Source of the DNA: a bacterium
Lineage (GTDB): Bacteria > Patescibacteriota > Saccharimonadia > Saccharimonadales > UBA4665
NCBI GenBank assembly: GCA_021851735.1
Contig: JAJZCD010000004.1
Location: 1-46,309, forward strand
Direction: 5' to 3'
Length of the DNA stretch: 46,309 nucleotides
This document shows, piece after piece, positions 1-15,943 of this stretch. The stretch's first letter is position 1, and each line of letters begins with the position of its first letter. The position numbers and the translations under genes are program-made. Under the pieces are notes generated by a model. The model did no database searches and was not told the origin of the DNA. It worked only from the letters and a program-made list of their open reading frames with translations.

Positions 1-348
1 TTCCGATCTACAACATTTGCAGACCTTAGTTTTCCTGAGGCTTCTTTTGACGGCGTTTGGGCCTACACTTCACTTATTCATATTCCCAAGAACGATGCAC
101 AAAAGGTCATTGCTCATGTGCATTCTATGCTCAAACCAGATGGAGCTTTCGTCATGGGGGCTATTGAGGGTGACGCAGCTGGTATGGTTGAGCGTAAAAC
201 TATGCCTGGTACGATGAGGTACTTTAAGAATTACAGCAAAGACGAGTTACGGGAACTTATAGAACCACTGGGCTTCACTTTTACATACGAGGAGGGCTAC
301 AAGCCCCACAATAACGTTTACTTAAATCAGCTATACCTTCGAGCCTAA
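1..348 (+). CDS. Class I SAM-dependent methyltransferase, C-terminal part (5' end outside window)
   Basis: The frame is open from base 1 to the TAA at 346-348 (115 residues), so the N-terminal SAM-binding motif I lies upstream of the window. What remains is the second half of a class I methyltransferase: a region rich in D-G-V-W followed by SLIHIP (the motif after strand 4), a helix with VHSMLKPDGAFVM (strand 5 and the KPGG-like turn), and a final YSKDELRELIEPLGF segment typical of UbiE/type-11 enzymes. The substrate cannot be told. It is co-directional with the genes that follow and is separated from them by the long structured repeat A at 362-491. A different methyltransferase at the far end of the array is followed by the same repeat type. 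Confidence 0.75.
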   Translation, partial: FRSTTFADLSFPEASFDGVWAYTSLIHIPKNDAQKVIAHVHSMLKPDGAFVMGAIEGDAAGMVERKTMPGTMRYFKNYSKDELRELIEPLGFTFTYEEGYKPHNNVYLNQLYLRA

Positions 349-361
349 ATAGTTCCTCACT

Positions 362-491
362 CGACCCATTAGTAGTGTTAATCCTACAAGGAATATATCA
401 AGCGTAGTGGGTCGGCTTACTCCGTTTACTGGCTAGGTAGATATCACCAATAACACCCCTCCAACGCTCCATTTCTTCGACCAAGGAGTGT
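362..491. repeat. Repeat A, copy 1 (left bracket of the cassette array)
   Basis: This about 115-130 bp element recurs at 9208-9321. Shared blocks are ATATATCAAGCGTAG, GGTAGAT-TC-CC and CCAACGCTCCATTT. It can fold as an outer stem CGACCCA (362-368)/TGGGTCG (408-414), an inner stem CTAC (384-387)/GTAG (404-407) around the conserved loop, and a second hairpin ACGCTCC (464-470)/GGAGTGT (485-491) with one G-T pair. The outer stem has different bases but is still paired in copy 2, which suggests the structure is selected. It has no T-run, so it is not an ordinary terminator. Confidence 0.7.
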
Positions 492-510
492 AAATTATCT
501 GTGCGCTGCA

Positions 511-546
511 CCTCCAATTTGGTAATATACAACCATAGTAACTTCT
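511..546 (+). repeat. Repeat B, right half only (array boundary 1)
   Basis: Only the right arm of the B repeat is present: CCTCCAATTTGG followed by the AACCATAGTAACTT block. It follows repeat A directly. The left arm AGTTGCTACAGCG seen at the other boundaries is missing, so this junction joins an A-type end to a B-type cassette start. A G/C-rich hairpin with a T-run (545-564) follows and then a -10 box (TAGAAT, 567-572). Confidence 0.6.
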
Positions 547-578
547 CCGCTTGGGGGAGTTTTTGCTAGAATAAACAA

Positions 579-953
579 GTGAATGCAAAAGCGATAATCG
601 AAACATTTAAGCGGCAGTACCCTGAGAAAAATATTATTTGTCTGCCAGACGATAACCCGACGGAAATTATTTGCGAAGTAGACCCGAGCAGCGAACACCC
701 AAACCATAATCGAGCAATAGCTGCCATTAGGATTTCCAAGCCCCACTACCACCGACTCGCAGAAGAAACATACAAAGTATTAGCGGGCCGGTTGAAATTA
801 TTCGTAGATGACAGAAAAATTGAACTTGCCGAAGGTGAAACATACGTCGTACCACCAAACAGCGTTCATTACGCAAAGGGAAACTTTACTGTTGTCCAAG
901 TCGACTCTACGCCCGGATGGACACCCGAGGACCATATCTTAGTTACGGATTAG
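579..953 (+). CDS. Small single-domain cupin protein
   Basis: A 124-residue protein with one cupin barrel. Cupin motif 1 is the PHYHRLAEETYKVLAG segment (metal ligands H-x-H and E), and motif 2 is the PPNSVHYA segment. The N-terminus (about residues 1-40) is a short helical extension with FKRQYPEK. Cupins of this size bind a metal and may be isomerases, dioxygenases or sugar-binding proteins; no reaction can be assigned. The start is GTG at 579, because a TAGAAT -10 box at 567-572 ends 6 nt before it and there is no Shine-Dalgarno site, so the mRNA is probably leaderless. It is the first complete cassette of the array. Confidence 0.8.
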   Translation: MNAKAIIETFKRQYPEKNIICLPDDNPTEIICEVDPSSEHPNHNRAIAAIRISKPHYHRLAEETYKVLAGRLKLFVDDRKIELAEGETYVVPPNSVHYAKGNFTVVQVDSTPGWTPEDHILVTD

Positions 954-1061
954 TGACAATCGGCACCATTGTACTGCGAGCCGGCTACACCCACCCTGCA
1001 ATGTAGTGCTTTTTATAGCTTAAGCTAAGATTATAATTGTTGACTTTGTATCCCTAATCTC

Positions 1062-1119
1062 AGTTGCTACAGCGTTCACGATGGCCCTCCAATTTGACAA
1101 TATATAACCACAGTAACTT
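1062..1119 (+). repeat. Repeat B, full copy (array boundary 2)
   Basis: A 58-bp copy with both arms. The left arm AGTTGCT pairs with the right AGTAACT (7 bp with one G-T), there are unpaired bases between the outer and inner parts, and the centre is CCTCCAATTTGA. It lies 108 bp after the cupin stop and just before a terminator and promoter for the next gene. Confidence 0.7.
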
Positions 1120-1137
1120 CATAGACTTAAGAACGTG

Positions 1138-1161
1138 AAAGAGTCATGGCTGGCTCTTTTT
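1138..1161 (+). terminator. Intrinsic terminator at a cassette boundary
   Basis: AAAGAG and CTCTTT form the stem around a short loop, followed directly by a T-run. The -10 box TATAGT (1164-1169) of the next gene begins right after the T-run, so termination and re-initiation are packed within 40 bp. Confidence 0.65.
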
Positions 1162-1177
1162 GTTATAGTTAAGGCAA

Positions 1178-1819
1178 ATGAAACTATACTTATCGTCCTA
1201 TGGCTTGGGCAACCAACCTGAAAAATTTACATCTCTCATTGACGGTAATAAACGTACGGCTATTATTGCCAATGCTTGGGACTTATCAACTCCCGAAGAA
1301 CGTGCTGGGGGACTACCAGAAAAATTAAAAGTGCTGCGAAGGTTAGGCCTCAAGCCCGAGGAGTTAGACTTGCGAGACTACTTTAAACACCAAGATCTAC
1401 TTGAAAAGAAAATTAAAGAATTTGGCGCTCTTTGGATTCTAGGCGGTAATTCGTTCGTATTACTAAGGGCAATGAATATGAGTGGCTTTACCCATTACAT
1501 CGTTCCCTTAGTTTTAAGCAACGAGATAGTGTTCGCAGGCTATAGTGCAGGGGCTGTTGCAGCCACTCCTGATCTTCACGGAATTGAGCTTGTCGATGAT
1601 CCTCTACACGTCCCCGAGGGATATAATAAACAGACACCCTGGAAAGGCTTGGGTCTAGTAGATTTCAGAATTGCACCACATTATCGCTCGAATCACCCTG
1701 AGTCAGAAGCAACCGAACAAGTCGTCAAATACTTCAAGGATAACAAATTACCCTACAAAACCTTACATGACGGTGAAGCCTTAGTCATACATGGTAAATC
1801 TGTAGAGTTGGTTAGTTAG
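1178..1819 (+). CDS. Peptidase E-like protein (peptidase family S51)
   Basis: A 213-residue protein with a class I glutamine-amidotransferase-like fold of the S51 type. The nucleophile elbow is the segment FAGYSAGA (Ser in G-x-S-x-G). It is preceded by the WILGGNSFVLLRAM strand-loop that is characteristic of dipeptidase E/cyanophycinase relatives. A later APHYRSNHPES segment supplies the probable catalytic His. Peptidase E cleaves Asp-X dipeptides; the substrate here is unknown. The start ATG is 8 nt after the -10 box TATAGT (1164-1169) and lacks a Shine-Dalgarno site, so it is probably leaderless. It is a single-gene cassette. Confidence 0.85.
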   Translation: MKLYLSSYGLGNQPEKFTSLIDGNKRTAIIANAWDLSTPEERAGGLPEKLKVLRRLGLKPEELDLRDYFKHQDLLEKKIKEFGALWILGGNSFVLLRAMNMSGFTHYIVPLVLSNEIVFAGYSAGAVAATPDLHGIELVDDPLHVPEGYNKQTPWKGLGLVDFRIAPHYRSNHPESEATEQVVKYFKDNKLPYKTLHDGEALVIHGKSVELVS

Positions 1820-1827
1820 CGCTGATT

Positions 1828-1891
1828 GTGGTTGCTACAGCGTTTACGATGGCCCTCCAATTTAGTAAAGTACAACCTCGATAGCATCTTA
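1828..1891 (+). repeat. Repeat B, full copy (array boundary 3)
   Basis: The left arm TGGTTGCTACAGCGTTTACG and the CCTCCAATTTAG centre are well conserved. The right arm (ACAACCTCGATAGCATCTTAG) is diverged but can still pair TGCTA with TAGCA. It begins 9 bp after the S51 gene stop. Confidence 0.65.
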
Positions 1892-1944
1892 GACTTTTCG
1901 TATTGCCGGATCACTCAGCAGAACCAGAAATGTAGAAGTTCCTA

Positions 1945-1964
1945 GTTCCTAGTATACTAGGAAC
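1945..1964. promoter_or_regulatory. Perfect 20-bp palindrome, candidate operator
   Basis: GTTCCTAGTATACTAGGAAC reads the same on both strands, and another half copy (GTTCCTA) abuts it at 1938-1944. It covers the -35 region of the promoter whose -10 box is TACACT (1973-1978), 6 nt before the ATG of the winged-helix/PRTase gene. Its position suits autoregulation by that protein. Confidence 0.6.
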
Positions 1965-1984
1965 ATTTGTGGTACACTGACAAC

Positions 1985-2974
1985 ATGAACACCTCACAAA
2001 AAATAATTGAATATATTGTAAAACACGGCCAGGTGAGAGGTTCCGAGCTTGTAGACTATCTGGAAATAACTGACCGTGCAGTCCGTAAGCAACTAAAAAA
2101 TTTGCTCGATAATGATATGGTTATAAAAACAGGTAAACCACCTAGAGTTTATTACTCCATACGTCCTGAGACAAATAATATAACTCAAAAAAAGGAAGAC
2201 CAACTTAAATCAATTGATAATATTTCCAAGGACCTAATTAAGGATAATTTCTTGTACATTACTCCTAGAGGGACAATGCTTGGAGGCTTGGATGGTTTTT
2301 TTGTTTGGTGTGACGAAAGAAAGCTTGATCCAATAAAGACCATAAGTACTTACAGCAAGACACTTAACAAATACCAACAATACAGTAAGCACGGCCTTAT
2401 CGATGGCACGTACAGGATGCAATCGACTTTTGACGAAGTTGCCCTAGACAAGGTTTTCTATATCGATTTCTATGCCATTGAGATCTTTGGTAAAACAAAG
2501 CTGGGCCAGCTACTGCTATTTGCTAAGCAGAGCCAGAATAGAGAACTAATAAACCGGCTAGCAGATATTATCAAGCCATCCGTTCAGCAGGTGATCAGGG
2601 AATATGAGATTGACGGAGTTGGTTTTATACCGCCAACTGTTAAAAGAGAACTACAACTTATCAGACAAGTTCAAAAACGACTAAATCTTGACACAAGAAC
2701 TCTCATGATAAACAAAGTTAAAACCCCTGTGGCTGTACCACAAAAAACACTCAGCAAAATTGAGGACAGAGTAATAAATGCCCGGGAGACAATGGTAGTA
2801 GAAAGCAACGACAGCTATAGTAACATTCTCCTCATTGATGACGCTGTCGGATCGGGTGCAACCCTCAATGAAACAGCTAAAAAGATTCGTCAGAGAGGGA
2901 TATGCTCCGGTAAAATTATTGGGCTAGCAATTACGGGTAGCTTTAAAGGCTTTGAGGTTATAAGTGAAGTATAG
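1985..2974 (+). CDS. Winged-helix DNA-binding protein fused to a ComF-like phosphoribosyltransferase domain
   Basis: A 329-residue protein. Residues about 5-50 form a winged helix (recognition region ELVDYLEITDRAVRKQLKNLL followed by a KPPRVYY wing). The C-terminal half is a ComF/PRTase-like domain that starts near GFIPPTVKRELQLIRQVQKRL and ends in the PRPP-binding loop LLIDDAVGSGATL. The arrangement recalls PurR-type regulators, in which a PRTase fold senses a nucleotide ligand; that role is inferred. The ATG at 1985 was chosen over an upstream in-frame ATG because the -10 box TACACT (1973-1978) lies between them and ends 6 nt before it. A 20-bp palindrome sits just upstream. It has lower GC than the neighbouring core genes. 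Confidence 0.75.
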   Translation: MNTSQKIIEYIVKHGQVRGSELVDYLEITDRAVRKQLKNLLDNDMVIKTGKPPRVYYSIRPETNNITQKKEDQLKSIDNISKDLIKDNFLYITPRGTMLGGLDGFFVWCDERKLDPIKTISTYSKTLNKYQQYSKHGLIDGTYRMQSTFDEVALDKVFYIDFYAIEIFGKTKLGQLLLFAKQSQNRELINRLADIIKPSVQQVIREYEIDGVGFIPPTVKRELQLIRQVQKRLNLDTRTLMINKVKTPVAVPQKTLSKIEDRVINARETMVVESNDSYSNILLIDDAVGSGATLNETAKKIRQRGICSGKIIGLAITGSFKGFEVISEV

Positions 2975-3027
2975 CAAGTTGTTATTAATCCGCTAATTAT
3001 CTATAAATGCCCGTTTATTGTCTTTGA

Positions 3028-3064
3028 GTTTGGTTGCTACAGCGTTTACGATGCCCCATCCAAG
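3028..3064 (+). repeat. Repeat B, short form (array boundary 4)
   Basis: The left arm GGTTGCTACAGCGTTTACGATG is intact. The right arm is missing, and instead TTGG before the arm can close on CCAA directly after it, giving a compact hairpin. Confidence 0.6.
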
Positions 3065-3075
3065 CATAATCAATA

Positions 3076-3105
3076 AAAATCCCTGTGGCGGAGACCACGG
3101 GGAAA
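3076..3105 (-). terminator. Hairpin with T-run on the minus strand
   Basis: The stem CCCTGTGG/CCACGGGG surrounds a 6-nt loop. The A-run before it becomes a T-run only when read on the minus strand, which is odd because the surrounding cassettes are all on the + strand. It may act as a barrier to antisense transcription. Confidence 0.4.
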
Positions 3106-3147
3106 AAGGGGATTCTTAATCTATTGCTACTTTGTTAGGATTAATAG

Positions 3148-3606
3148 ATGGATATCCGGTCAGTACAGGCGGCAATTAATAACTGCAAGGGGCTTTGTGT
3201 TGAGATAGGCGGACCCACACCGCACGGTTATGAGTTTATTCGGGAACTAGGGCTAACTTTGCCCGCGAACATACTGGTTACAAATATATCTAACCCGGTC
3301 ACACTCAACCCTTTTGGAGAAAACCCCGAGCAGCACCACGTTGATGCCGTTATTGATATTCAGCACTTGCCGTATAAGAAAGGCAGCGTCGATATGATAA
3401 TAACAAGCAGCCTTCCTCATAAATTACACAAAACACTACTTACGGAGTCCGCTAAGGTACTTCGCGAAAGCGGCTTGTTGGTCATCGAGAATGAGCAGCC
3501 CGAAGACAAAGAATTGGCCAACCAATCAAACTTTGAGCCACTATTGGACACTAAAATAGCCAACAGATTTCATAGTCAGATATATCAGCTTGTAGGCATT
3601 GCTTGA
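3148..3606 (+). CDS. Small class I methyltransferase-like protein
   Basis: A 152-residue protein with a reduced Rossmann methyltransferase fold. Motif I is CVEIGGPTPHG (E-x-G-G-x-x), followed by an acidic/H-V-D-A-V-I-D-I-Q-H-L-P-Y region like motifs III-IV, DMIITSS, and the AKVLRESGLLVIEN strand that matches the post-motif of type-11 methyltransferases. It is shorter than usual (about 200-250 residues), so it may be a degenerate or non-catalytic member. The start ATG is 6 nt after TAGGAT (3136-3141), again consistent with a leaderless mRNA. It is a single-gene cassette. Confidence 0.65.
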   Translation: MDIRSVQAAINNCKGLCVEIGGPTPHGYEFIRELGLTLPANILVTNISNPVTLNPFGENPEQHHVDAVIDIQHLPYKKGSVDMIITSSLPHKLHKTLLTESAKVLRESGLLVIENEQPEDKELANQSNFEPLLDTKIANRFHSQIYQLVGIA

Positions 3607-3609
3607 TCG

Positions 3610-3641
3610 TGGCTTAGACAGTGTCTACGATGAGCCTCCAA
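3610..3641 (+). repeat. Repeat B, diverged short form (array boundary 5)
   Basis: The sequence GGCTTAGACAGTGTCTACGA followed by TGAGCCTCCAAG matches the left arm and centre with several changes. No right arm is evident. A separate small inverted repeat ACAC/GTGT follows. Confidence 0.5.
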
Positions 3642-3711
3642 GTATTTCACACGGCGAAACAACTGTGTATGAGGCGCTGCTTTTGACTGCTTTTTGCTAT
3701 ACTGCGAGCAA

Positions 3712-4047
3712 ATGAAGAAAACGTATTTAAGCTTTGCACTCTTTGCGGCAGCAGTTTTACTCGCAGCTTTTCAGCTTATCAAGTTTGATACTGTGATAGC
3801 TCATACTTCGGGGTGGACAGACGGGCAAGCGGATAGCTGGACAGTATTTAGCCCTGCAATAGACGGGATAATACTGCTTATAATCGTTGTGTTCACATCA
3901 CTAGGGACTTACGTAGGACTAAGTCGATTAAAGCGCCTACGATTACGTATACTATTAGCGTTACTCGTCGCATTTACCACATGGTCAGTCTTCTTCACTA
4001 TACAGCTAGTAATACAGCATCATCTTTCACATTTTAATGGGGTCTAG
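3712..4047 (+). CDS. Small membrane protein, three predicted transmembrane segments
   Basis: A 111-residue protein. Hydrophobic segments lie at about residues 5-25, 50-70 and 80-103. Between the first two is a short extracytoplasmic-looking loop rich in W, D and G (SGWTDGQADSWTVFSP), and a basic RLKRLRLR stretch lies on the cytoplasmic side before the last helix. I do not recognise the family. The ATG at 3712 is preferred over an in-frame upstream ATG because TATACT (3698-3703) ends 8 nt before it. It is a single-gene cassette. Confidence 0.7.
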   Translation: MKKTYLSFALFAAAVLLAAFQLIKFDTVIAHTSGWTDGQADSWTVFSPAIDGIILLIIVVFTSLGTYVGLSRLKRLRLRILLALLVAFTTWSVFFTIQLVIQHHLSHFNGV

Positions 4048-4109
4048 CTACCTGCCCGGTTGTAATTATGTAGCGTATGACCTACATACCGCTGTTGTTA
4101 AGGTAAAAT

Positions 4110-4173
4110 AGTTACTACAGTGTTCACGGTAGCCCTCCAAGTTGGTCGTATATTGCCACAGCGACTTATTAGG
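4110..4173 (+). repeat. Repeat B, full copy (array boundary 6)
   Basis: AGTTACTACAGTGTTCACGG, then CCCTCCAAGTTGG in the centre, then ACAGCGACTTATTAG on the right. The outer arms pair at 6 of 7 positions (AGTTACT with AGCGACT), and the centre CCAA-G-TTGG is itself a small palindrome. Confidence 0.65.
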
Positions 4174-4187
4174 ACGATGAAAACTTC

Positions 4188-4216
4188 AACCAGGTGCCAG
4201 CATGGTCTTTTTTTGT
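4188..4216 (+). terminator. Intrinsic terminator at a cassette boundary
   Basis: The stem ACCA..TGC/GCA..TGGT is followed by an eight-residue T-run. It stands between repeat B and the VOC gene promoter. Confidence 0.55.
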
Positions 4217-4263
4217 TGTAAATACGACTTTGAAAATAGCGGTACAAACATCAGAATAAAAGT

Positions 4264-4647
4264 ATGAGGATAACAAGCCTGCTGCTCTGGGTGCAAGAAA
4301 ATAGACTGTCTACCAAATTCTACAAGAAGCTCGGCTTTGATGTCGTCCGTTCAACTGACGACCATTCAGTAGTTGCGCTCAATAGTTTTGAAATCACACT
4401 TGTCAACATACGCGATGAGGACAAGTTTGCTCGCGACTCTATGTCAGGCGATAAGGGCAAGGGCATGTACGTCTACATAAGAGTTGAAGATGTGGACTCC
4501 AAATATAAAGAGCTGATAAATTTAGGCTTTAGACCTACTACCGAACCAAAGGACTGGCAATGGGGTAATCGGGAGTTTATATTAAAAGACCCTGATGGCT
4601 ACAAACTTTGCTTTTGGCAACCAGTAAAGATAGCCGAGCATGGATAA
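4264..4647 (+). CDS. Glyoxalase/bleomycin-resistance (VOC) superfamily protein
   Basis: A 127-residue protein with two beta-alpha-beta-beta-beta modules. The first runs from ITSLLLWVQENRLSTKFYKKLGFDV, and the second from MYVYIRVEDVDSKYKELINLGFRP to a REFILKDPDGYKLCFWQP ending (typical C-terminal D-P-D-G-x-x-x-x-F-x-x). VOC proteins bind a metal between the modules and include dioxygenases, glyoxalases and drug-binding proteins; the ligand here is not predictable. The start ATG follows an AGAATA box (4253-4258) by 5 nt. Its stop overlaps the start of the next gene by 8 bp, so this cassette carries two translationally coupled genes. Confidence 0.8.
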   Translation: MRITSLLLWVQENRLSTKFYKKLGFDVVRSTDDHSVVALNSFEITLVNIRDEDKFARDSMSGDKGKGMYVYIRVEDVDSKYKELINLGFRPTTEPKDWQWGNREFILKDPDGYKLCFWQPVKIAEHG

Positions 4648-5191
4648 TGAATTACGACTTACTGACTGCGTTGAATGGTTTTCTAGGCGAGCCTCAAAAG
4701 CAACGTATGCAGGTGATGGGAGCGAGGTAAAACCGTGGCGTAGTGGCTTCAAAGAGCTAGAGTATAGTGAGAACGACTGGTATTACCGTGATAGCTACTC
4801 AGGGTATTTACGTTCACGGGAACAAGAAGTTGTCTGGTATAACGATGCCCCAACGTGGACATGTCTGTACGGTGGTGGCATGGCTGAAAATAACATAAAT
4901 AATGAGTTTGCACGCAAAACATTTAGCTGCTTGAAGGTAGTTCTGTCGTCTGGCGAGAAAGGAACTACCTTTCAACCACGTGGGCCAAAAGAATTAGCCA
5001 AGGGTAATTGGCGGTATAAATGTGAGCTCGAGGGTAGCCTTGCTAAGTTCAGTGGGCACGAATCCATTATCTATAACAGCACGATTGTATTCACCCATGA
5101 TTTCATTGGGGGGTATAACACTAGGCGATTAGCAATGCCACAAAGAGCATACCGTCTACGTAGATGCGGGTTGCCACAGCGTTTACGATAG
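4640..5191 (+). CDS. DUF5680-like protein with a C-terminus that runs into the cassette repeat
   Basis: A 183-residue reading frame that begins with a 4-bp-plus overlap on the VOC gene. The segment KATYAGDGSEVKPWRSGFKE followed by LEY-x(5)-WYYRDSY and QEVVWY matches what I recall of DUF5680, a family of about 140-170 residues of unknown function. The last 25 or so residues (from about YNTRR) are rich in R and are encoded partly inside repeat B at 5168-5202, so the native C-terminus has probably been lost by frameshift or by cassette recombination. Family assignment is from memory. Confidence 0.6.
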   Translation: MDNELRLTDCVEWFSRRASKATYAGDGSEVKPWRSGFKELEYSENDWYYRDSYSGYLRSREQEVVWYNDAPTWTCLYGGGMAENNINNEFARKTFSCLKVVLSSGEKGTTFQPRGPKELAKGNWRYKCELEGSLAKFSGHESIIYNSTIVFTHDFIGGYNTRRLAMPQRAYRLRRCGLPQRLR

Positions 5192-5217
5192 CCTCCATAA
5201 CCGCCCGTGTTTAAACC
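5168..5217 (+). repeat. Repeat B, short form (array boundary 8)
   Basis: GGGTTGCCACAGCGTTTACG and GCCTCCATAACC match the left arm and centre. GGGTT at the left can pair with AACCC near 5213-5217 in place of the missing right arm. It overlaps the 3' end of the DUF5680-like reading frame. Confidence 0.55.
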
Positions 5218-5241
5218 CCTCTGTTCTGCTATGATGGGCAC

Positions 5242-6066
5242 ATGATAAAAGCCATCATATCTGATGCCGACGGCACATTGGTTAACACTGTTTATCTAAT
5301 CCGGCACGGCCAATATGAAACTACCATAGAATACCTTATCGATTGCGGCATACCGCGACATGATATTCCAAACTACGAAGTATACGAAAGTTATATCAAC
5401 AAATCAGTTGGCGGAAGCACCCGAGAGACGTTCGAGAAGACCATTCGTCTACTATTCAGTAAAACGTACGAACACCACTTAGAGAGAATCAACTTTGACG
5501 AGCTTGATGCACGATTAGCTCCCATCCAAGATCACATAGCGCCTTTGTACGTCCACCCCTTCCACGGCCTCACGGAATTTTTTTCATGGCTTGGCGCCAG
5601 CAAGACGAGTATGGGTATTTTTACTAGCGGTAATAGGCGCATGATTGTACGAAACTTTGGCGTAAGCTTACCGGTCATGGGCTATACAGACTTATTTAAG
5701 GCAGACGACATCAATGTCTCTGAGCGACTAAGTGCATTTATAGCACGCGCCAAGGCAGTCTATGGCATTCCCGAGCTTACAGTAGTTACTTGCGAAGAAG
5801 TTACTAAGACCAAACCTGATCCTGAAGGCATTCTGAAACTATTAGATGATCTCAACGTAGAGCCTGATGAAGTTGTCGTATTAGGCGACCACCCTGTAGA
5901 TATGTACGCAGCACACGCCGCTGGTTTGCATAGCATAGGTATTTCACACGGTTTTGGCACTATTGCTGATCTAAAAGAAGCTGGTGCCGTCCAAATTGTA
6001 GATGACTTAGCCTCATTACCGCGTATCATCGATGGCCACAACTCAGGTAGAACATTGCTCTTTTAA
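5242..6066 (+). CDS. HAD-superfamily hydrolase (phosphoglycolate-phosphatase-like)
   Basis: A 274-residue HAD protein of subfamily I. Motif I is ISDADGTLVNT near the N-terminus (nucleophile Asp and acid/base Asp), motif II is GIFTSGN, motif III is the Lys in TKTKPDPEG, and motif IV is VVVLGDHPVDMYAA. The long cap between motifs I and II (about 100 residues, helical) fits a C1 cap. Such enzymes dephosphorylate small metabolites; the substrate is unknown. The ATG is 6 nt after TATGAT (5230-5235), so it is probably leaderless. It is a single-gene cassette and one of three HAD-type enzymes in the array. Confidence 0.85.
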   Translation: MIKAIISDADGTLVNTVYLIRHGQYETTIEYLIDCGIPRHDIPNYEVYESYINKSVGGSTRETFEKTIRLLFSKTYEHHLERINFDELDARLAPIQDHIAPLYVHPFHGLTEFFSWLGASKTSMGIFTSGNRRMIVRNFGVSLPVMGYTDLFKADDINVSERLSAFIARAKAVYGIPELTVVTCEEVTKTKPDPEGILKLLDDLNVEPDEVVVLGDHPVDMYAAHAAGLHSIGISHGFGTIADLKEAGAVQIVDDLASLPRIIDGHNSGRTLLF

Positions 6067-6091
6067 GAAGATAGGACTCGAAGCCTAATTT

Positions 6092-6156
6092 CAGTTACGA
6101 TAGTGTACGCGATGGCCCTCCAATTTGGTGGCATATTACAATACTTGACTTCTTAG
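6092..6156 (+). repeat. Repeat B, full copy (array boundary 9)
   Basis: AGTTACGATAGTGTACGCG, GGCCCTCCAATTTGG in the centre, and a right arm ending CTTGACTTCTTAG. The outer arms AGTTACG and CTTGACT pair at 6 of 7 positions. Confidence 0.65.
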
Positions 6157-6177
6157 ATCTCCCAAAACACGGTGACC

Positions 6178-6203
6178 AAAGAGCCTATCAACGACTCTTT
6201 TTG
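6178..6203 (+). terminator. Intrinsic terminator at a cassette boundary
   Basis: AAAGAG pairs with CTCTTT across a loop, followed by a T-run. It is the same design as at 1138-1161. Confidence 0.65.
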
Positions 6204-6248
6204 TTATTCCTCTGTTGTGGGGTGTTTTTAGTTTGGTATACTGCACCT

Positions 6249-6839
6249 ATGAAGCCGGTCATTATATTCGATTTCTTCGGAGTGTTCTGTACTTCAATTG
6301 CGACTGATTGGTTTAAGAAGAATGTATCGACGGCTAGCAATGATCTAAAGGCGTTTCAGGCACTTTGTACCCGAAGCGATTATGGCAAGCTGACTAGGGC
6401 TGAGTTCAACCAAGAGGTGTCAGTCATGACTGGCATAGCTGTCCCCGATATTATCACTGGTATCGAAGCAGAAACACACATAGATACGTCGCTCGTATCA
6501 TACGTACGGCAACTTCAGGCAAAAGGCTACCGTATTGCCTGTCTGTCAAACGGTACCCGGGAGTGGACCCTACGCGTAATTATTGACCACGACCTTGGTG
6601 ACCTCTTCGAGCAGGTAGTATTGTCAGGTGATTTAGGCATTGTGAAACCAAGTCCGGGTATTTACACACGTACCCTTGAGATACTCAGGATTAGCGCAGC
6701 AGAAGCTATATTTGTCGATGACAGGAAAACTAACGTTGACGCTGCTATTGATTGCGGCATGCGGGGGATACTGTTCACCAACACACCAACATTCGAGCAA
6801 GAATTTGAGCGCATAGAATCTGCCTTCAGTGCAACATAA
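6249..6839 (+). CDS. HAD-superfamily hydrolase, DFFG variant
   Basis: A 196-residue HAD protein of subfamily IA. Motif I reads IIFDFFGVF, so the nucleophile Asp is present but the usual Asp two positions later is replaced by Phe; the same variant occurs in some epoxide-hydrolase-N-domain-like HADs. Motif II is ACLSNGT, motif III GIVKPSPGIY, and motif IV AIFVDDRKTNVDAA. Loss of the acid/base Asp makes ordinary phosphatase activity uncertain. The ATG at 6249 follows TATACT (6237-6242) by 6 nt and is chosen over an upstream in-frame ATG. It shares its cassette with the SnoaL-like gene 21 bp downstream. Confidence 0.8.
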   Translation: MKPVIIFDFFGVFCTSIATDWFKKNVSTASNDLKAFQALCTRSDYGKLTRAEFNQEVSVMTGIAVPDIITGIEAETHIDTSLVSYVRQLQAKGYRIACLSNGTREWTLRVIIDHDLGDLFEQVVLSGDLGIVKPSPGIYTRTLEILRISAAEAIFVDDRKTNVDAAIDCGMRGILFTNTPTFEQEFERIESAFSAT

Positions 6840-6860
6840 GGTTTAACGTAAGGAGAACGT

Positions 6861-7229
6861 ATGTCAGAGCAGCAATTCGATGAATGGGTAACAAAATACG
6901 GTAAAGCCTGGGAAGCGCTTGATCCAGATGCGGTCATGAGCCTTATGGACCATGACGACCTTACCTACTACGAGTCAACATTCAATGAGCCGACTCACGA
7001 CTGGGATTCGGTCGACAAGCTATGGCAGGTTGTGCCTACCAACCAAAAGGACGTAAAGTTTTGGCACGAAATCCTGTTCTACAGTAAAGACAAAGTGGTA
7101 GCTCACGTAAAAATTACCCGCACAATGATACCCTCCAATGAGATGCAGGATATCGATGCGGCATTCGTTTTTGGCATAAATGATAAAGGACTATGTACCT
7201 ACTTTAGACAGTGGAGAATGTTACGCTAG
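6861..7229 (+). CDS. SnoaL-like/NTF2-fold protein
   Basis: A 122-residue protein with an NTF2-like cone fold. The N-terminal helix FDEWVTKYGKAWEALDPDAV is followed by MSLMDHDDLTYYESTFNEP, alternating strands with VVAHVKITRTM, and a final CTYFRQWRM strand. This matches SnoaL-like domain proteins of about 110-130 residues. The family includes small isomerases and many uncharacterised members. It is the second gene of its cassette and, unlike the first genes, has a clear Shine-Dalgarno site (AAGGAG, about 6 nt before the ATG), which supports the split between leaderless first genes and SD-led internal genes. Confidence 0.75.
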   Translation: MSEQQFDEWVTKYGKAWEALDPDAVMSLMDHDDLTYYESTFNEPTHDWDSVDKLWQVVPTNQKDVKFWHEILFYSKDKVVAHVKITRTMIPSNEMQDIDAAFVFGINDKGLCTYFRQWRMLR

Positions 7230-7252
7230 CAAGCCTACTTTCAGAGCACATT

Positions 7253-7283
7253 TCGGTTTCACAGCGTTCACGATGCGCAACCG
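7253..7283 (+). repeat. Repeat B, short form (array boundary 11)
   Basis: CGGTTTCACAGCGTTCACGATG, then AACCG. The left arm is kept and its first bases CGGTT close directly with AACCG (7279-7283), so the hairpin is preserved with a different closing sequence from the other copies. Confidence 0.6.
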
Positions 7284-7533
7284 ACTTATCAGCTTCAAAC
7301 ACCAAGTAGCTACTCACCTTTTATTATTTGAGTAGCCAACTACTTTTCTGAACTGTTAACCGGTTCTGGTCCGACTTAATAAAATGAACGCATGGATGTG
7401 GCTCAATAAGTAACCGGCTCAGAACCAAAAGTCGAAGTGGTTTGATCTGCTGTTGCGCGTACACTACGGCCCAGACTTGATTGCCCATAAAATAGCGGCC
7501 ACAAACCCCAATCTTTGTTATATACTTCGTTCT
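7284..7533 (+). other. Long cassette leader region without a gene
   Basis: This region starts with a terminator-like hairpin (GCTACTC near 7308-7315 with GAGTAGC at 7330-7336, then CTACTTTT). Further on, GGTTCTG (7362-7368) matches CAGAACC (7420-7426) and CGACTT (7372-7377) matches AAGTCG (7429-7434). Those two pairings cross, so a pseudoknot is possible. It ends with the TATACT box of the next gene (7521-7526), so most of it would not be in that mRNA. I see no coding sequence. Confidence 0.4.
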
Positions 7534-8397
7534 ATGATTACCATTCCTGAAACTCTACACTACAAAGAACACAAACCAGTAATCCAAAAACTCTCAGCCT
7601 TCGCAGACGCGGGGCCAAAGAATCTACATATTGTTGCCGACTTTGATCTAACACTGACAGCAGGTAAAAATCACGGCGATAATCTCGGTACGTGGGACGT
7701 CATGGATGCTCTTATGCCCCCAGAAGGTGTTCAGGCCCACAATGCTATCTACCAATCATTTCGACCAACTGAAAGGGCTGGGAAGCTTACTGAGGCCGTC
7801 GCAAAGGAGAAGTGGTCGGAAACACTCGATCTTATCACCAGCTACCATATGCGTATTGACGATATCGAGGAGGCATTCTTGTCGGTCGCTGCATTACGCA
7901 CTGGAGCCAAAGAACTATTTGATGCATGCGCATCCAATGATATCCCCACCGTTATACTCTCCTCAGGCATTAGAAACGTAATTGAAATTATGGCTAATCA
8001 TTACAGTCTGCGGCCAAATTTTATATTATCCAATGATCTTATCGTCGACGACAGTGGCCGCGTATGTGACTGGGATCGCGAAACACTCATTCATGTGCTA
8101 AATAAGCACGAAATGGGCCACAAAGAATTGTCTTCACTTCGTACTATGCGTCCCCATGTACTGTTACTCGGAGATGTACCTGCGGATACTATGATGGTGC
8201 CTGGTGATGATAACGTCATCCGAATCAGGGTCCTAGACCCTCGCAAGGGCGAGACACACAACCTACGAAAGGAAATTGAGGAAAGCTTTACCGCCGGTTA
8301 TGACCTCGTGACCGAACATAGTTTGGAACCTGTAGCAGAAATCGTCCTGCAGCTCACTGAAGCTTATTCGCTTACACCAGCCACTCTATCCGAATAA
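7534..8397 (+). CDS. Cytosolic 5'-nucleotidase III-like (UMPH-1 family) phosphatase
   Basis: A 287-residue HAD-fold protein resembling eukaryotic-type pyrimidine 5'-nucleotidases. Motif I is IVADFDLTLTA, followed by the family-typical segments SFRPTE, KEKWSETLDLI, the GAKELFDAC helix, VILSSGIRNVIE (motif II), NFILSNDL, and HVLLLGDVPADTMM (motif IV). These enzymes remove phosphate from UMP/CMP-type nucleotides; the substrate is inferred only from the family. The ATG at 7534 is used because TATACT (7521-7526) lies 7 nt before it, and the in-frame upstream extension would start before that promoter. It is a single-gene cassette. Confidence 0.8.
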   Translation: MITIPETLHYKEHKPVIQKLSAFADAGPKNLHIVADFDLTLTAGKNHGDNLGTWDVMDALMPPEGVQAHNAIYQSFRPTERAGKLTEAVAKEKWSETLDLITSYHMRIDDIEEAFLSVAALRTGAKELFDACASNDIPTVILSSGIRNVIEIMANHYSLRPNFILSNDLIVDDSGRVCDWDRETLIHVLNKHEMGHKELSSLRTMRPHVLLLGDVPADTMMVPGDDNVIRIRVLDPRKGETHNLRKEIEESFTAGYDLVTEHSLEPVAEIVLQLTEAYSLTPATLSE

Positions 8398-8402
8398 CAT
8401 AT

Positions 8403-8495
8403 TTCAATTACTACTGCTTGGAGCTTAATTAAGTCTGGGTGCAATAATGAACACATGCACCCCATTCTGGTTGTATATATCCACGGTAGCTTATC
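8403..8495 (+). repeat. Repeat B, long form with a central variable hairpin (array boundary 12)
   Basis: A degenerate left arm AATTACTACTG and a right arm GTTGTATATATCCACGGTAG flank an extra central hairpin GGGTGCA (8438-8444)/TGCACCC (8456-8462). CTACTG in the left arm pairs with CGGTAG in the right. A conserved outer stem with a variable central hairpin is the layout of integron attC sites. Confidence 0.55.
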
Positions 8496-8518
8496 AGGCT
8501 CCCGAGAATTGGAATCGA

Positions 8519-8544
8519 AGGGCCTATCGATCAGGCTCTTTTTT
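8519..8544 (+). terminator. Intrinsic terminator at a cassette boundary
   Basis: GGGCCT/AGGCTC stem with a T-run, directly followed by TATAGT (8547-8552), the -10 box of the next gene. Confidence 0.65.
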
Positions 8545-8558
8545 GCTATAGTTAACGT

Positions 8559-9209
8559 ATGGAAAATATTGCTCTAGAGCGTCAAGCCCAAAAGATTGAT
8601 GAATTCAGAAAGCTGTCTAAGCCTTACCAGAAGCATATAGCTGGACTACAGCTGACAATACTTCCTGATGTTTTCCCAGGAGGTACAGATAGTGAGCTCT
8701 TATGCGAGACTATGATTATCCGTAACGGCGACTTAGTCCTTGATGTATGCACTGGAAACGGCGTTGTAGCTCTCGTAGCTGCCCACAAGGGTGCAAAGCA
8801 TGTCATAGGCACAGATTTGAACCTTGCTGCCATAGAAAACGCAAATCTCAATCGCAATCAGCTCAACCTCAAGAACGTTTCGTTCGTCGAGACGGACCTG
8901 TTTCCGACTGACAACTCACGTTATGATGTCATAACAGCCAATATGCCATACTCCGACCATCCCGCGCCAGACAAAACAGCCATATGTTTCTGGGATGAAG
9001 GTAATAAAACGCTCAAAGTATTTTTTAGAGACCTCAAACACCATCTTAAGCCAACCGGCAAGGTCTTTCTCTCATGGCCAAGTTTTGGTGATTCTAAGCT
9101 GCTTACAAGACTAGCAAAAGAACATCATTTACACATGCACCTCGTGAATTCTCGTACCAGCAAAAGCTCAGGATTTGAGTATTACGTATACGAAATCACG
9201 TTGTCCTAA
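8559..9209 (+). CDS. HemK/MTS-type SAM-dependent methyltransferase
   Basis: A 216-residue protein with the small-methyltransferase (MTS) domain. Motif I is LVLDVCTGNGVVALVAA, motif II VIGTDLN, a middle motif VSFVETDLFP, and motif IV ITANMPY, close to the N-P-P-Y signature of enzymes that methylate amide or amino groups (HemK/PrmC, RsmC, TrmN6). The target cannot be named. The ATG is 6 nt after TATAGT, so it is probably leaderless. Its stop codon lies inside the first stem of repeat A copy 2, which closes the array. Confidence 0.8.
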   Translation: MENIALERQAQKIDEFRKLSKPYQKHIAGLQLTILPDVFPGGTDSELLCETMIIRNGDLVLDVCTGNGVVALVAAHKGAKHVIGTDLNLAAIENANLNRNQLNLKNVSFVETDLFPTDNSRYDVITANMPYSDHPAPDKTAICFWDEGNKTLKVFFRDLKHHLKPTGKVFLSWPSFGDSKLLTRLAKEHHLHMHLVNSRTSKSSGFEYYVYEITLS

Positions 9210-9321
9210 CTAAACTACAAAGATATATCAAGCGTAGCAGTTTAGTTTACCGTACCTGTTAGCGAGGTAGATGTCGCCGATGGACACCTGTCCAACGCTC
9301 CATTTTGCTGCCACGGAGCGT
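9208..9321. repeat. Repeat A, copy 2 (right bracket of the cassette array)
   Basis: It matches copy 1 in the CTACAA-ATATATCAAGCGTAG block, the GAGGTAGATGTCGCC block and the TCCAACGCTCCATTT block. The outer stem AACTAAACT (9208-9216)/AGTTTAGTT (9239-9247) replaces the CGACCCA/TGGGTCG stem of copy 1, so pairing is conserved although the bases differ. The second hairpin ACGCTCC (9295-9301)/GGAGCGT (9315-9321) is fully paired here. Confidence 0.7.
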
Positions 9322-9333
9322 CAACTAACCGCA

Positions 9334-9837
9334 TTAGTCCTTACCGTGTTTTTTTACTTCTCCGGCGCCTTGTTTATGATGTGTCAATAGAAGAAATAAT
9401 AGACTTAACACCGTCCCACCTAGCAGCACTGCAACCTGCAGGTTGCTGAGCTGGTGCCATAAGCTTAACTGGTGAACTTGCCGTTGTGTGTTAGCTGGCA
9501 GTAATGGCACGACAAATAACGCAAACAGCAGCCCTGCGGCTAGAGCGGGCAAAAAGTTAGTAATTTTTTTTGTGCCACGCACGCTACCGCGTACAAACAG
9601 CATAGTCAGCAGGAATGGTGCTATCAAAAGCCCTAATTGTACCCACTGATCCGTTTTTAACATGCCTTGCGAGGCTGAAAGGCTAGTCGCTATCGTACCA
9701 ACATCACCTGAAACATACGTGACGAGCACACTACCTACGCAGAGACTCATAAACGCAATCGCCCCATTCGCACGAAAAATCAGTACCACCAGAGCGGGTA
9801 CAAACACAAGCGCAGCGAGAATGAGCGAAGCTGTCAT
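9334..9837 (-). CDS. Integral membrane protein of unknown family
   Basis: A 167-residue protein with about five hydrophobic segments (roughly residues 4-22, 26-48, 66-84, 93-112 and 134-156), a polar loop at GSVRGTKKITN, and a charged C-terminal tail. The pattern of a polar glycine-rich segment between the second and third helices is reminiscent of CvpA-like proteins, but I cannot name the family with confidence. The ATG is 6 nt after TACTAT (9844-9849), so it is probably leaderless. It is convergent with the cassette array, and its 3' end abuts repeat A copy 2. Confidence 0.65.
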   Translation of the reverse strand: MTASLILAALVFVPALVVLIFRANGAIAFMSLCVGSVLVTYVSGDVGTIATSLSASQGMLKTDQWVQLGLLIAPFLLTMLFVRGSVRGTKKITNFLPALAAGLLFALFVVPLLPANTQRQVHQLSLWHQLSNLQVAVLLGGTVLSLLFLLLTHHKQGAGEVKKHGKD

Positions 9838-9927: not shown

Positions 9928-10833
9928 TTACGCGCCAATTTTGTCTTTACGCGGTCGAGCTTTTGCGTTGTGTTCAACGTATTCGATAATTTTTGTTGCT
10001 ACGTCTCGCTTCGTGATAAGTTCTGGTGTCTTTATACTAGCACTACTGTTAACTTCGAGCACTTTCGGACCATCGTTAGAGCGCATCATATCGACCCCGC
10101 AAATTGGTAGATTCATTGCCTTAGCGGCTCTGATAGCGGTCTTCTCTTCCTCGATTGACAACTTAACTGCTCTACCTACTCCGCCCTGGTGTGTATTACT
10201 ACGAAAATCATCATCAAGACTCTGCCGCTGCACGCTGGCAACCACCCGACCTCCAACAATTAACGCCCGAATATCGGTACCAGCGCTTTCTGTCACAAAC
10301 TCCTGCACGATAAAATTCACACCCTCAACATAGAATGCTTGCATCACAGCCTTAGCGGCCTTGCGCGTTTCGGCTAGCACTACACCATTTCCATGCGTTC
10401 CGCGAGCTACCTTGATAATCACTGGTGCGCCACCCGCCAGTTCTACCACCTCTTCTAGGTTAGCGGTTTCACGAGCGAACACTGTCTTTGGTATGCCCAC
10501 ATCCTGACGGGCCATAATTTGATACGAACGAAGTTTGTCACGGGAACGATTTATGGCCATGGAACTCGCAGTCGTAAATGCTCCCTGCATTTCGAACTGA
10601 CGCACGACGGCCGTACCGTACTTGGTATAGCTCTGGGCGATACGTGGGATAATGGCATCGAAACGTGGCAATTCTTTACCCTTGTAATACACTACCGGCT
10701 TTCCTTTTTCCATGGTCATATAGCACATAGCGTAATTTATAACCTGCGTATCATGACCATGCTCGAGTGCGACCTCTTTAAGTCGCTTCGTAGTGTAATT
10801 GAGAGATCCTTTTGATAAGATTGCGATTTTCAT
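9928..10833 (-). CDS. rimK: RimK-family ATP-grasp glutamate ligase
   Basis: A 301-residue ATP-grasp enzyme of the RimK type, which adds glutamate (or another amino acid) to a C-terminus such as that of ribosomal protein S6. The N-terminal domain (about 1-100) starts MKIAILSKG and contains IIPRIAQSYTKYG. The ATP-grasp domain carries VIIKVARGTHGNGV (ATP-binding lysine and glycine loop), FIVQEFV, DIRALIVGGRVVAS, and the metal-binding ending CGVDMM plus KVLEVNSSA. It lies 13 bp downstream of the RimB-RimK fusion, with a good SD (AAAGG, 6 nt before the ATG), so the two are co-transcribed. The amino acid added and the target are not visible in the sequence. Confidence 0.85.
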   Translation of the reverse strand: MKIAILSKGSLNYTTKRLKEVALEHGHDTQVINYAMCYMTMEKGKPVVYYKGKELPRFDAIIPRIAQSYTKYGTAVVRQFEMQGAFTTASSMAINRSRDKLRSYQIMARQDVGIPKTVFARETANLEEVVELAGGAPVIIKVARGTHGNGVVLAETRKAAKAVMQAFYVEGVNFIVQEFVTESAGTDIRALIVGGRVVASVQRQSLDDDFRSNTHQGGVGRAVKLSIEEEKTAIRAAKAMNLPICGVDMMRSNDGPKVLEVNSSASIKTPELITKRDVATKIIEYVEHNAKARPRKDKIGA

Positions 10834-10846
10834 AAATGCCTTTCCC

Positions 10847-12181
10847 CTATTTATTCAACTCTGCCTCAATGTACCTGGCGAACGCCCGCGTCTTATCTGG
10901 AACAAATGCACCTGATGTTATCTGTGGATTATCATTTACTTCAAAACAATACCATTTCTCCGTACCATTTTCTTTAACCATATCCACACCCGCTATACCC
11001 AAACCGAGTACTTTTGCCGCAGTAACACTACTAGCCTGGACATCGGTTGGTAAATCAGATATATCGGCTATACGAGCCGAGCCACCTTGTGACGTATTGT
11101 TTAAGTGCGTGCCATTGAATGAACGACTACGGTAAATAACGAGCGATATTCGACGGCCAAATACAAGTACCCGATAATCTCCATCATTGGCAATAAATTT
11201 TTGACCGATGAAAAACAGATTATCTGCTTTAGCCTTTTGCGCGATACGCTTAAACTCTGCCTCGTCGTGTATTAAATAATTATTATCTCCCTTATTAGCG
11301 TGTATCCCTTTGAGAACGAATGGTACACCCAAAAAATCAACAAATCGTCGGTAAGAAGCAGCGATTATACTTGGAGCGACGTAAAGTGAATCGGGTATAG
11401 ATACGCCCGATTCAGCTAGAATTGCGTATTGATATAACTTGCTCGAATACGGATAATACCTGCTGAATTCATCATCAACTATCTTTACACCACGATGTTT
11501 CAGATATCGCGCCATCGCTGCCGAGATATCGCGCGTTTTTGCAGCCTTAAAATGCACTAAATCATAATCTCTAATATCTTCACCTGTCGACAACAACACT
11601 ACACGCGGTCCCTTTGCGTCAAAACTGAAGCACACATCATCATATGTAGCATGAGTAATCTCAAGATCGTTCACCACATTGGCCACGTCCGTTACAAACT
11701 TACTCACCGACGGAACAATGCTATTACTCATCAGTAACATACGTCGCGGTTTAGTATTTGCCGGTTTTGCAGATACATCAACTAAAAACTTACCATGTAA
11801 CGTACGCCGACCGATTAGTATCGGCTGGCTATTGTTTTCCCGATTGGCAAGTGTAAATCGAACCCTGATGACACGACCAGACAACCGGATATACAAAGAA
11901 ACCTTGTAACGGGATTCAACATGCCCAAACGAATTTTTAATAGAAATAACGCTAAACCTATCGGCTGACAATACTTCACCCGTATAAAACGGGGAGGCTT
12001 TGTCGAACAAAGTAAAGTGCAACGAACCATTTTCTTCATGGATATTACTGGCCCAGATGGCTGAACTATCGGCACCAGTGTCTATCTTGGCCGGTACGCC
12101 GACTATCCCTAATGTAGGGAAATCGATTAGCTCTTTTGAGCCAATGACGCCGATGCCCTTACTATTTACGGTCATAAACAT
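10847..12181 (-). CDS. RimB-like aspartic-type protease domain fused to a RimK-like ATP-grasp domain
   Basis: A 444-residue two-domain protein. Residues about 8-140 match the RimB/ATP-dependent zinc protease family (retropepsin-like): IGSKELIDFPTLGI, the active-site-like KIDTGADSSAIWA, and ILIGRRTL. Residues about 165-444 are a RimK-like ATP-grasp ligase, with FVLKGIHANKGDNNYL, FIGQKFIANDGDYRVLVFG and an ending FEVNDNP. In Pseudomonas, RimB trims the glutamate tails that RimK adds, so one polypeptide here combines a putative eraser and writer, followed by a second RimK. A TATTAA box (12191-12196) ends 9 nt before the ATG. Whether the ATP-grasp part is active is unknown. Confidence 0.75.
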   Translation of the reverse strand: MFMTVNSKGIGVIGSKELIDFPTLGIVGVPAKIDTGADSSAIWASNIHEENGSLHFTLFDKASPFYTGEVLSADRFSVISIKNSFGHVESRYKVSLYIRLSGRVIRVRFTLANRENNSQPILIGRRTLHGKFLVDVSAKPANTKPRRMLLMSNSIVPSVSKFVTDVANVVNDLEITHATYDDVCFSFDAKGPRVVLLSTGEDIRDYDLVHFKAAKTRDISAAMARYLKHRGVKIVDDEFSRYYPYSSKLYQYAILAESGVSIPDSLYVAPSIIAASYRRFVDFLGVPFVLKGIHANKGDNNYLIHDEAEFKRIAQKAKADNLFFIGQKFIANDGDYRVLVFGRRISLVIYRSRSFNGTHLNNTSQGGSARIADISDLPTDVQASSVTAAKVLGLGIAGVDMVKENGTEKWYCFEVNDNPQITSGAFVPDKTRAFARYIEAELNK

Positions 12182-12390
12182 ACTCTGACATTAATACTAA
12201 TCTTTTCTATGTGGTTTTGTTATAATAACACCTTTTATTATTTTTTGCAATGTTTTTATGCATTATAAACCCTTTCAATAATATCTCCGGCGAGCGTCTT
12301 ACTCAACTTCCAATATACCCATGTCTAACACTTCATGGAACGTTACCTAATCCAGAATGACATGGGCTTAGGAAAATAAGTGAAATACCG

Positions 12391-12507
12391 TTAGTGCTGT
12401 GCACGAGCAACATACACATATGAAAAATACAGCACAGCAGCAATAATGAGCACAAGGCAGATAAGCATCGGTATAAAGCCCTGCTGGTTGTATCGAAGTT
12501 TACGCAT
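12391..12507 (-). CDS. Small 38-residue single-pass membrane protein
   Basis: A short reading frame in the gap between the rimB-rimK operon and dnaJ. It encodes a basic start (MRKLRYNQQGF), then a hydrophobic stretch (IPMLICLVLIIAAVLYFSYV, about residues 12-31) and a short polar tail ending RAQH. The TATTAT -10 box (12516-12521) ends 8 nt before the ATG, the same leaderless spacing as the annotated genes around it. I do not recognise a named family. The rest of this gap (12182-12390 and 12508-12611) is A/T-rich and shows no further coding sequence. Confidence 0.6.
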   Translation of the reverse strand: MRKLRYNQQGFIPMLICLVLIIAAVLYFSYVYVARAQH

Positions 12508-12611
12508 CTACCCGAATAATACCGCTTTTATGTAGGTTTGTTAAGGAAAGGGGCCGCCAGCTACGCCCATAAACCCAATGCACGACTCAACAAGTTGCAT
12601 AGCTAACAGCT

Positions 12612-13727: not shown

Positions 13728-13876
13728 ATCTGTCAATTCTACACCTCTTCGGTGTTTCTCCTAAACCTGCCGGCGTGGGCTGATCGTGACTACAACGTTT
13801 CTGTAATAACATTGCAGGCATAACACCCATCCACGGCATTCTTTTCTGCGGTGTTACAAAGAAGGGTCCGCCTTCA

Positions 13877-15799: not shown

Positions 15800-15838
15800 G
15801 ATAGATAATTTCCCTTCTTTTTAGCAGGTAACTCTTTG

Positions 15839-15847
15839 GAGTGCTAA
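15839..15847 (-). promoter_or_regulatory. Extra CIRCE half-site
   Basis: GAGTGCTAA stands 20 bp from the near half of the full CIRCE and in inverted orientation to it. It falls downstream of the dnaK -10 region, so it would be in the start of the transcript or could help HrcA bind. Confidence 0.5.
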
Positions 15848-15867
15848 TACAATTGTAGCATAAAAAA

Positions 15868-15894
15868 TTAGCACTCACATGTCAAGAGTGCTAA
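15868..15894 (-). promoter_or_regulatory. CIRCE operator and dnaK promoter
   Basis: A perfect CIRCE: TTAGCACTC, 9 bp, GAGTGCTAA. On the minus strand the 9-bp spacer contains TTGACA, the -35 box. TATGCT with 17-bp spacing, or TACAAT 5 bp further on, would be the -10. HrcA bound here would cover the -35 directly. Confidence 0.9.
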
Positions 15895-15943
15895 CAATGT
15901 ATTTTCAGCCCACCTCAGGGGGCACCTATAATTACACAGGGGG

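Follow-up and report, generated by a model that had tools for sequence, protein, structure and literature searches.

The window analysed here, a stretch of 46,309 nucleotides (nt) from a Saccharimonadales bacterium (contig JAJZCD010000004.1, assembly GCA_021851735.1), begins inside an array of small genes which we read as an integron-like gene-capture platform, located at the 3' end of a tRNA-Lys gene and moved, mostly in trans, by a large serine recombinase (LSR). We give this reading a probability of about 75%. The platform is chromosomal and anchored on the 3' end of the tRNA-Lys gene, and a cassette comprises one gene (at times two or more) closed by a tail of about 29 nt; many cassettes also have a -10-like box and a terminator. 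In the scenario we propose, recombination at a shared core would set the cassette beside the tRNA-Lys; the tRNA end would be restored, and every cassette would keep one tail. Insertion would occur next to the tRNA, and arrays would thus grow in one orientation. The tail and the core together would represent the element-side half of an LSR attachment site, and cassettes would be excised as circles.

The tail and its tRNA-Lys anchor

A sequence-only reading of the window had described thirteen short genes of unrelated functions facing the same way, most of them ending in copies of one inverted-repeat family, and had proposed a cassette array. The gene count and the single strand were confirmed (13 genes, one of them partial, spanning window 10-9209), the cassette array is supported, and most gene ends do carry copies of related repeats, but the repeat itself had to be redefined. 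Aligning the window copies with those on two contigs of the same genome (C33 and C50) showed what is conserved, a directional tail of 29 nt with the consensus GTTGCRATARCGTCTACGATGGCCCTCCA, which lies at the 3' end of the cassette, terminates in GGCCCTCCA and ends at a CCA; its final ~10 nt are the tRNA-Lys 3' end, CCA included. Only this left part of the repeat is conserved. To the right of the CCA lies a variable "head", of which several recurring and differing classes exist, and the inverted repeat GTTGCTACAG ... CCACAGTAAC is formed only by tails that have one particular head class behind them. Head classes are common to the 3' flanks of tRNA-Lys and of tails, and a search of the heads for a symmetric second half-site found no one motif conserved across the classes. 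The tail copies are not due to chance, because 542 kb of shuffled sequence contained no match at 12 bits to a 40-nt weight matrix derived from the strong copies and because exact copies of TGGCCCTCCA are restricted, in this genome, to six places: the tRNA-Lys 3' end and five tails. In four loci (L087, L069, L284 and L286), hairpins resembling tRNA terminators were seen behind tRNA-Lys as well as behind tails, in the manner of sequences displaced by insertions, and one lineage (L189 and L190) has its own tail variant, GTTGCGATAAGCATCAC...

The array had been placed at 349-9330. Its right limit indeed lies near 9335, where housekeeping genes on the opposite strand start, but on the left it continues beyond the window up to a tRNA-Lys(TTT). 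The right end of a further contig, C53, is identical to the window from base 10 over 126 bp, and it holds this tRNA-Lys(TTT) at C53:30410-30486, which is 1,109 bp upstream of window base 1. A second array, on C33, begins directly 3' of tRNA-Lys(CTT). Therefore, both tRNA-Lys genes found in the genome head one array each, and the array of the window starts outside it. Every locus with sufficient upstream sequence has a tRNA-Lys upstream, on the same strand as the array (the loci without a visible tRNA-Lys are those cut by contig or locus ends), and no tail on the opposite strand was found in 57 loci. Complete tRNA-Lys(TTT) copies were also seen within arrays, at L064:8713-8789 in array orientation (10213-10289 on the minus strand) and at L121:1640-1715; both are preceded by shared upstream DNA, so that a complete tRNA-Lys may form the end of a cassette. 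The part of the array lying in the window is as follows, with gene families from Pfam and tail scores in bits.

1-9, no strand: contig start TTCCGATCT; C53 matches the window exactly only from base 10 and diverges before it
10-516, plus: remainder of the first cassette or cassettes after tRNA-Lys(TTT), from the 126-bp exact overlap with C53
511-546, plus: decayed core CCTCCA (511-516), then a class-A head, ATTTGGTAATATACAACCATAGTAAC
517-1091, plus: cassette with a cupin gene (Cupin_2) 579-953, tail 1063-1091 (57.4 bits)
1092-1859, plus: cassette with a peptidase S51 gene 1178-1819, tail 1831-1859 (54.3 bits)
1860-3062, plus: cassette with a helix-turn-helix and phosphoribosyltransferase-like gene 1967-2974, tail 3033-3062 (28.6 bits; core altered to GCCCCATCCA)
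3063-3640, plus: cassette with a methyltransferase-like gene (Methyltransf_11) 3148-3606, tail 3612-3640 (21.5 bits)
3641-4139, plus: cassette with a 117-aa protein without known family 3694-4047, tail 4111-4139 (38.8 bits)
4140-5197, plus: cassette of two genes, glyoxalase/VOC 4264-4647 and DUF5680 4640-5191, tail 5170-5197 (by alignment), into which the DUF5680 frame extends
5198-6122, plus: cassette with a HAD hydrolase 5242-6066, tail 6094-6122 (46.4 bits)
6123-7284, plus: cassette of two genes, HAD hydrolase 6201-6839 and SnoaL-like 6861-7229, decayed tail 7256-7284 (by alignment)
7285-8464, plus: cassette with a UMPH-1/HAD gene 7534-8397, decayed tail ~8437-8464 (by alignment)
8465-9335, plus: last cassette, with a class-A head, a methyltransferase 8559-9209 and a structured end unrelated to the tail

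The nine nucleotides TTCCGATCT resemble what we take to be the end of an Illumina adapter and are probably a sequencing-adapter remnant, not genomic. The methyltransferase gene of which the 3' part lies in the window, up to 348, keeps an open frame over the joined contigs. The stretch 511-546, formerly described as a half copy of the repeat, turned out to be a class-A head following a decayed tail, and this head type is also found 3' of tRNA-Lys and of tails in other genomes. Cassette 1860-3062 has homologous DNA in another locus (L163, 75.6%). The last cassette shows no clear tail at its end. A second structured element, unrelated to the tail, occurs in two copies, 349-500 and 9205-9335, 3' of the methyltransferase genes at the two sides of the array, and presents two stems with covariation apparent by eye; sought elsewhere as a putative further tail, it gave a single match of 12 nt, in another locus, and viral contigs gave none. 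An Rfam scan returned tRNAs only.

Distribution, content and exchange of the cassettes

The tails are confined to Saccharimonadia. A strict pattern matched 27 of 99 genomes (that of the window and its relatives), and the reversed control pattern none. In 84,980 species genomes, a pattern found 49 stretches, a search in which about one chance match is expected; nearly all belong to Saccharibacteria or unnamed bins, plus one Ktedonospora. A 35-nt sequence model of the tail, used at E <= 0.01, detected 103 of the 393 Saccharimonadales genomes, some four of these matches being expected to be false, and outside this order it matched one genome of about 250 in the phylum (Patescibacteria), there too with a tRNA-Lys upstream. 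Viral contigs gave no tail match. The sequence-only reading had named repeats scattered genome-wide at all gene ends as a refuting result; this is not the case, as the repeats are confined to arrays.

Cassette intervals (n = 145) have a median length of 745 bp. Greedy calling of open reading frames (ORFs) gave one ORF in 89 of 154 intervals, 73 of these 89 ORFs being in array orientation, and the median distance from the last stop codon to the tail start is 20 nt. Near the cassette start, a -10-like hexamer is commoner than in shuffled sequences (mean best match 4.6 versus 4.1 of 6), and cassettes often carry terminators. The cargo is diverse, with toxin-antitoxin-like proteins as the most frequent families; that of the window includes cupin, S51 peptidase, VOC, HAD, SnoaL and methyltransferases. 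The largest array seen contains ~21 tails after tRNA-Lys (G099:C15, 12.4-27.6 kb, covering L189 and L190; judged from the coordinates, this is the same record as G066:C15).

Variation at the repeats between relatives, which the sequence-only reading had proposed to look for, is what we found: cassettes are exchanged at the core, with one of the breakpoints lying off it. In two genomes of one genus (L073, which is G048:C60, and L121, also G058:C61), a block matching at 98.8% ends 14 bp before a tRNA-Lys in L121, the sequences then diverge, and the match resumes at 98.7% from the tail start through the next cassette. Loci L168 and L125 have a common cassette (97.7%) which stops at the last base of the core, beside differing neighbors, and L090 and L075 have a common block (91%) starting inside the tail/core, with differing cassettes upstream. 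The arrays are thus made of exchangeable single-gene cassettes, as are those of integrons, and their units lack an integrase and are flanked by copies of the core. The presence of near-identical cassettes in different settings suggests ongoing movement.

The recombinase and the competing explanations

The sequence-only reading had suspected a recombinase other than that of integrons, and this fits our results: it is an LSR, and not a tyrosine recombinase, that has the best link to the site. LSRs are present in 240 of the 393 genomes of the order, and for 28 of the 30 homologs scanned (the exceptions being L255 and L258) the 3' end of the gene lies beside or overlaps a tRNA gene. In the clade nearest to the LSR of L217 (genome G192; gene at L217:5929-7602, minus strand), this tRNA is tRNA-Lys in 7 of the 7 loci that have a tRNA, and the LSR gene overlaps its 3' end. 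Six full-length or nearly full-length tRNA-Lys LSRs, whose hosts come from different families, form one clade with 100/100 support, and the target labels cluster on the tree more than in any of 200 shuffles, the alignment including the last ~13 residues, from the tRNA antisense strand, which could slightly help the clustering. A minimal element is found in genome G064 (L279), where tRNA-Lys, LSR, 5.5 kb, a tail and a terminator follow one another, so that the LSR abuts its target and att halves stand at both element ends. The near-complete genome G192 presents on one 1.1-Mb contig a tRNA-Lys, an LSR element and its tail, plus at least five further tails. At tRNA-Trp and tRNA-Gly, LSR elements (L304 and L307) end in conserved tails of their own, in two copies each, which end at the tRNA CCA and are followed by other sequence; small cassette arrays at other tRNAs are a possible explanation. 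Because the array tail is identical with the right end of LSR elements at tRNA-Lys, and because the elements at tRNA-Trp and tRNA-Gly have their own tails, the tail behaves as the element-side half-site of a tRNA-specific LSR. The tRNA-Lys-specific LSR, present in few genomes, would be the probable cassette mover, acting in trans on the arrays found elsewhere.

By its domains, this LSR matches Pfam Resolvase above the cut-off and the Recombinase and zinc-ribbon domains below it; it reaches 41 bits with CcrB and 41 bits with CcrC, for cut-offs of 900, and is thus not of the Ccr type. The last ~13 codons and the stop of the LSR gene come from the antisense strand of the target tRNA (WRARRDSNPRHPA; L217:5929-5970, L249-L254). 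Excision would swap these codons for the tail and give another C-terminus, a possible self-regulation. The LSR element of L217 also contains (12129-17013) IetS- and IetA-like defence genes, a cytosine methylase and a Vsr-like gene, the last named by eye; tRNA-Lys elements therefore carry defence cargo too.

Several observations weigh against the LSR-driven platform. The heads are more variable than expected of the second half-site of a serine integrase, some tRNA-Lys elements also encode a tyrosine recombinase, and no excised cassette circle was seen. The tRNA-Lys LSR occurs in only 7 of the 393 genomes, for 103 with tails, so that most arrays need an enzyme provided in trans or in the past. 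Moreover, textbook serine integrases recombine attL or attR with attP only in the presence of a directionality factor, and tandem growth is therefore unexplained by this rule. Action in trans, a directionality factor or loss of the enzyme after use could account for the tandem growth, the variable heads and the rarity of the LSR.

A rather unlikely alternative is that a tyrosine recombinase moves the same tRNA-Lys platform, be it the housekeeping Xer or the XerA-like enzyme that some of the tRNA-Lys elements encode. Tyrosine integrases typically insert in tandem at tRNA 3' ends, a strong Xer-type match is present in almost all array genomes, and L180, L209 and L217 each have a XerA-like gene upstream of a tail and on the strand opposite to it. 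However, this family also stands beside LSRs at tRNA-Pro, Ser, Arg and Glu, which shows that the target is independent of it and led us to reject it as the target determinant; it is found in only 17 of 393 genomes, and G064, which has the LSR of the minimal element, is absent from its matches. As for the housekeeping Xer, it lies mostly near tRNA-Arg, where it is conserved at a distance from the arrays, and it was rejected as a dedicated integrase.

It is very improbable that the arrays are old and now inert, and reshuffled by homologous recombination between tails and tRNA-Lys copies. Decayed tails in the window, the tRNA-Lys copies inside L064 and L121 and the L073/L121 breakpoint off the core would agree with it, but homologous recombination would have only a short similarity of 29 nt to act on, tRNA-Lys and tails have the same heads behind them, and the near-identical cassettes in differing settings speak for movement today. 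We find hardly any room for a degenerate integron that would have kept a diverged attC and lost IntI, or for the cluster of attC sites lacking an integrase (CALIN) that the sequence-only reading had brought up: cassettes are single genes sharing one orientation, and their cargo is typical of integrons (VOC, SnoaL, S51, NUDIX, toxin-antitoxin), but the R box pair RYYYAAC/GTTRRRY, already reported as not evident, is absent from 51 aligned tails read by eye without IntegronFinder, in all lineages the core of the site comes from the 3' end of tRNA-Lys, and the integron-integrase model TIGR02249 (cut-off 265) gives 33.5 and 27.1 bits for two tyrosine recombinases encoded by tail-bearing elements, a scan with the housekeeping Xer outside its scope. 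Just as implausible are conserved 3'-untranslated or terminator RNA elements without a recombination role, for although tails closely follow stop codons and terminators often come next, they occur only in tRNA-Lys-anchored arrays, end at the tRNA CCA and mark the LSR element end, and shared cassettes start or stop at them beside different neighbors.

Significance and comparison with known systems

Bacteria of the candidate phyla radiation, to which the parasitic Saccharibacteria belong, have tiny genomes and depend on a host. For the open question of their gene acquisition, a platform present in about a quarter of the sampled Saccharimonadales genomes is a concrete and searchable route, and the 35-nt tail model makes its arrays easy to detect. 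Returning to the LSR-driven platform, we lean, with some reserve, towards an equivalent of the integron that uses a serine integrase and docks at tRNA-Lys, with a Saccharimonadia-wide collection of single genes and membership in a wider family with related LSRs on other tRNAs. If an LSR drives the arrays, cassette arrays evolved twice, with an unrelated class of recombinase, and this second origin would part the essentials of integrons from their historical traits. The tRNA-specific LSRs and their sites are also candidate tools for DNA insertion at tRNA ends. A literature search, with most subscription journals and bioRxiv preprints outside its coverage, found no title or abstract describing these arrays. 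We regard them as a new kind of cassette platform; under a more cautious label, they would be a new variant of accretion arrays.

The arrays share with integrons and CALINs the exchangeable single-gene cassettes in one orientation, the site at the cassette 3' end, one fixed anchored end, the many arrays without an integrase, and a cargo of toxin-antitoxin genes and small enzymes. They differ from them by a site made of a tRNA-Lys 3'-end copy and a 29-nt tail instead of attC, by an anchor which is tRNA-Lys and not attI, by cassettes which often have their own -10-like boxes, and in that no IntI was found among the recombinases scanned. The staphylococcal cassette chromosome (SCC), with its Ccr serine recombinases and composite islands, likewise combines an LSR, to which ours has weak CcrB and CcrC matches, with tandem elements at the 3' end of a conserved gene, and some SCC elements lack a recombinase; in contrast, the target here is tRNA-Lys and not rlmH wherever the upstream sequence was long enough, most cassettes hold a single gene, as many as ~21 stand in a row, and the LSR is only distantly related. 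In its probable mechanism, the platform resembles the composite SCC islands and also the cis-mobilizable elements and accretion arrays of integrative and conjugative elements (ICEs) or integrative and mobilizable elements, which lack an integrase, are flanked by att sites, accrete at one tRNA end and are mobilized by helpers. Our units are integrase-less and flanked by copies of the core, and a helper would move them in trans, but they are mostly single genes and not ICE remnants, and the platform they form extends across the Saccharimonadia lineage. Integration at a tRNA 3' end, with the end of the tRNA copied, is also seen in tycheposons and other tRNA-targeting islands, whereas tycheposons use tyrosine recombinases and carry multi-gene cargo. 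Finally, the pdif (Xer) modules of Acinetobacter plasmids are, like our cassettes, small gene modules without their own recombinase located between short recombination sites, but these are dif-like XerC/D sites, carried on plasmids and without a tRNA anchor.

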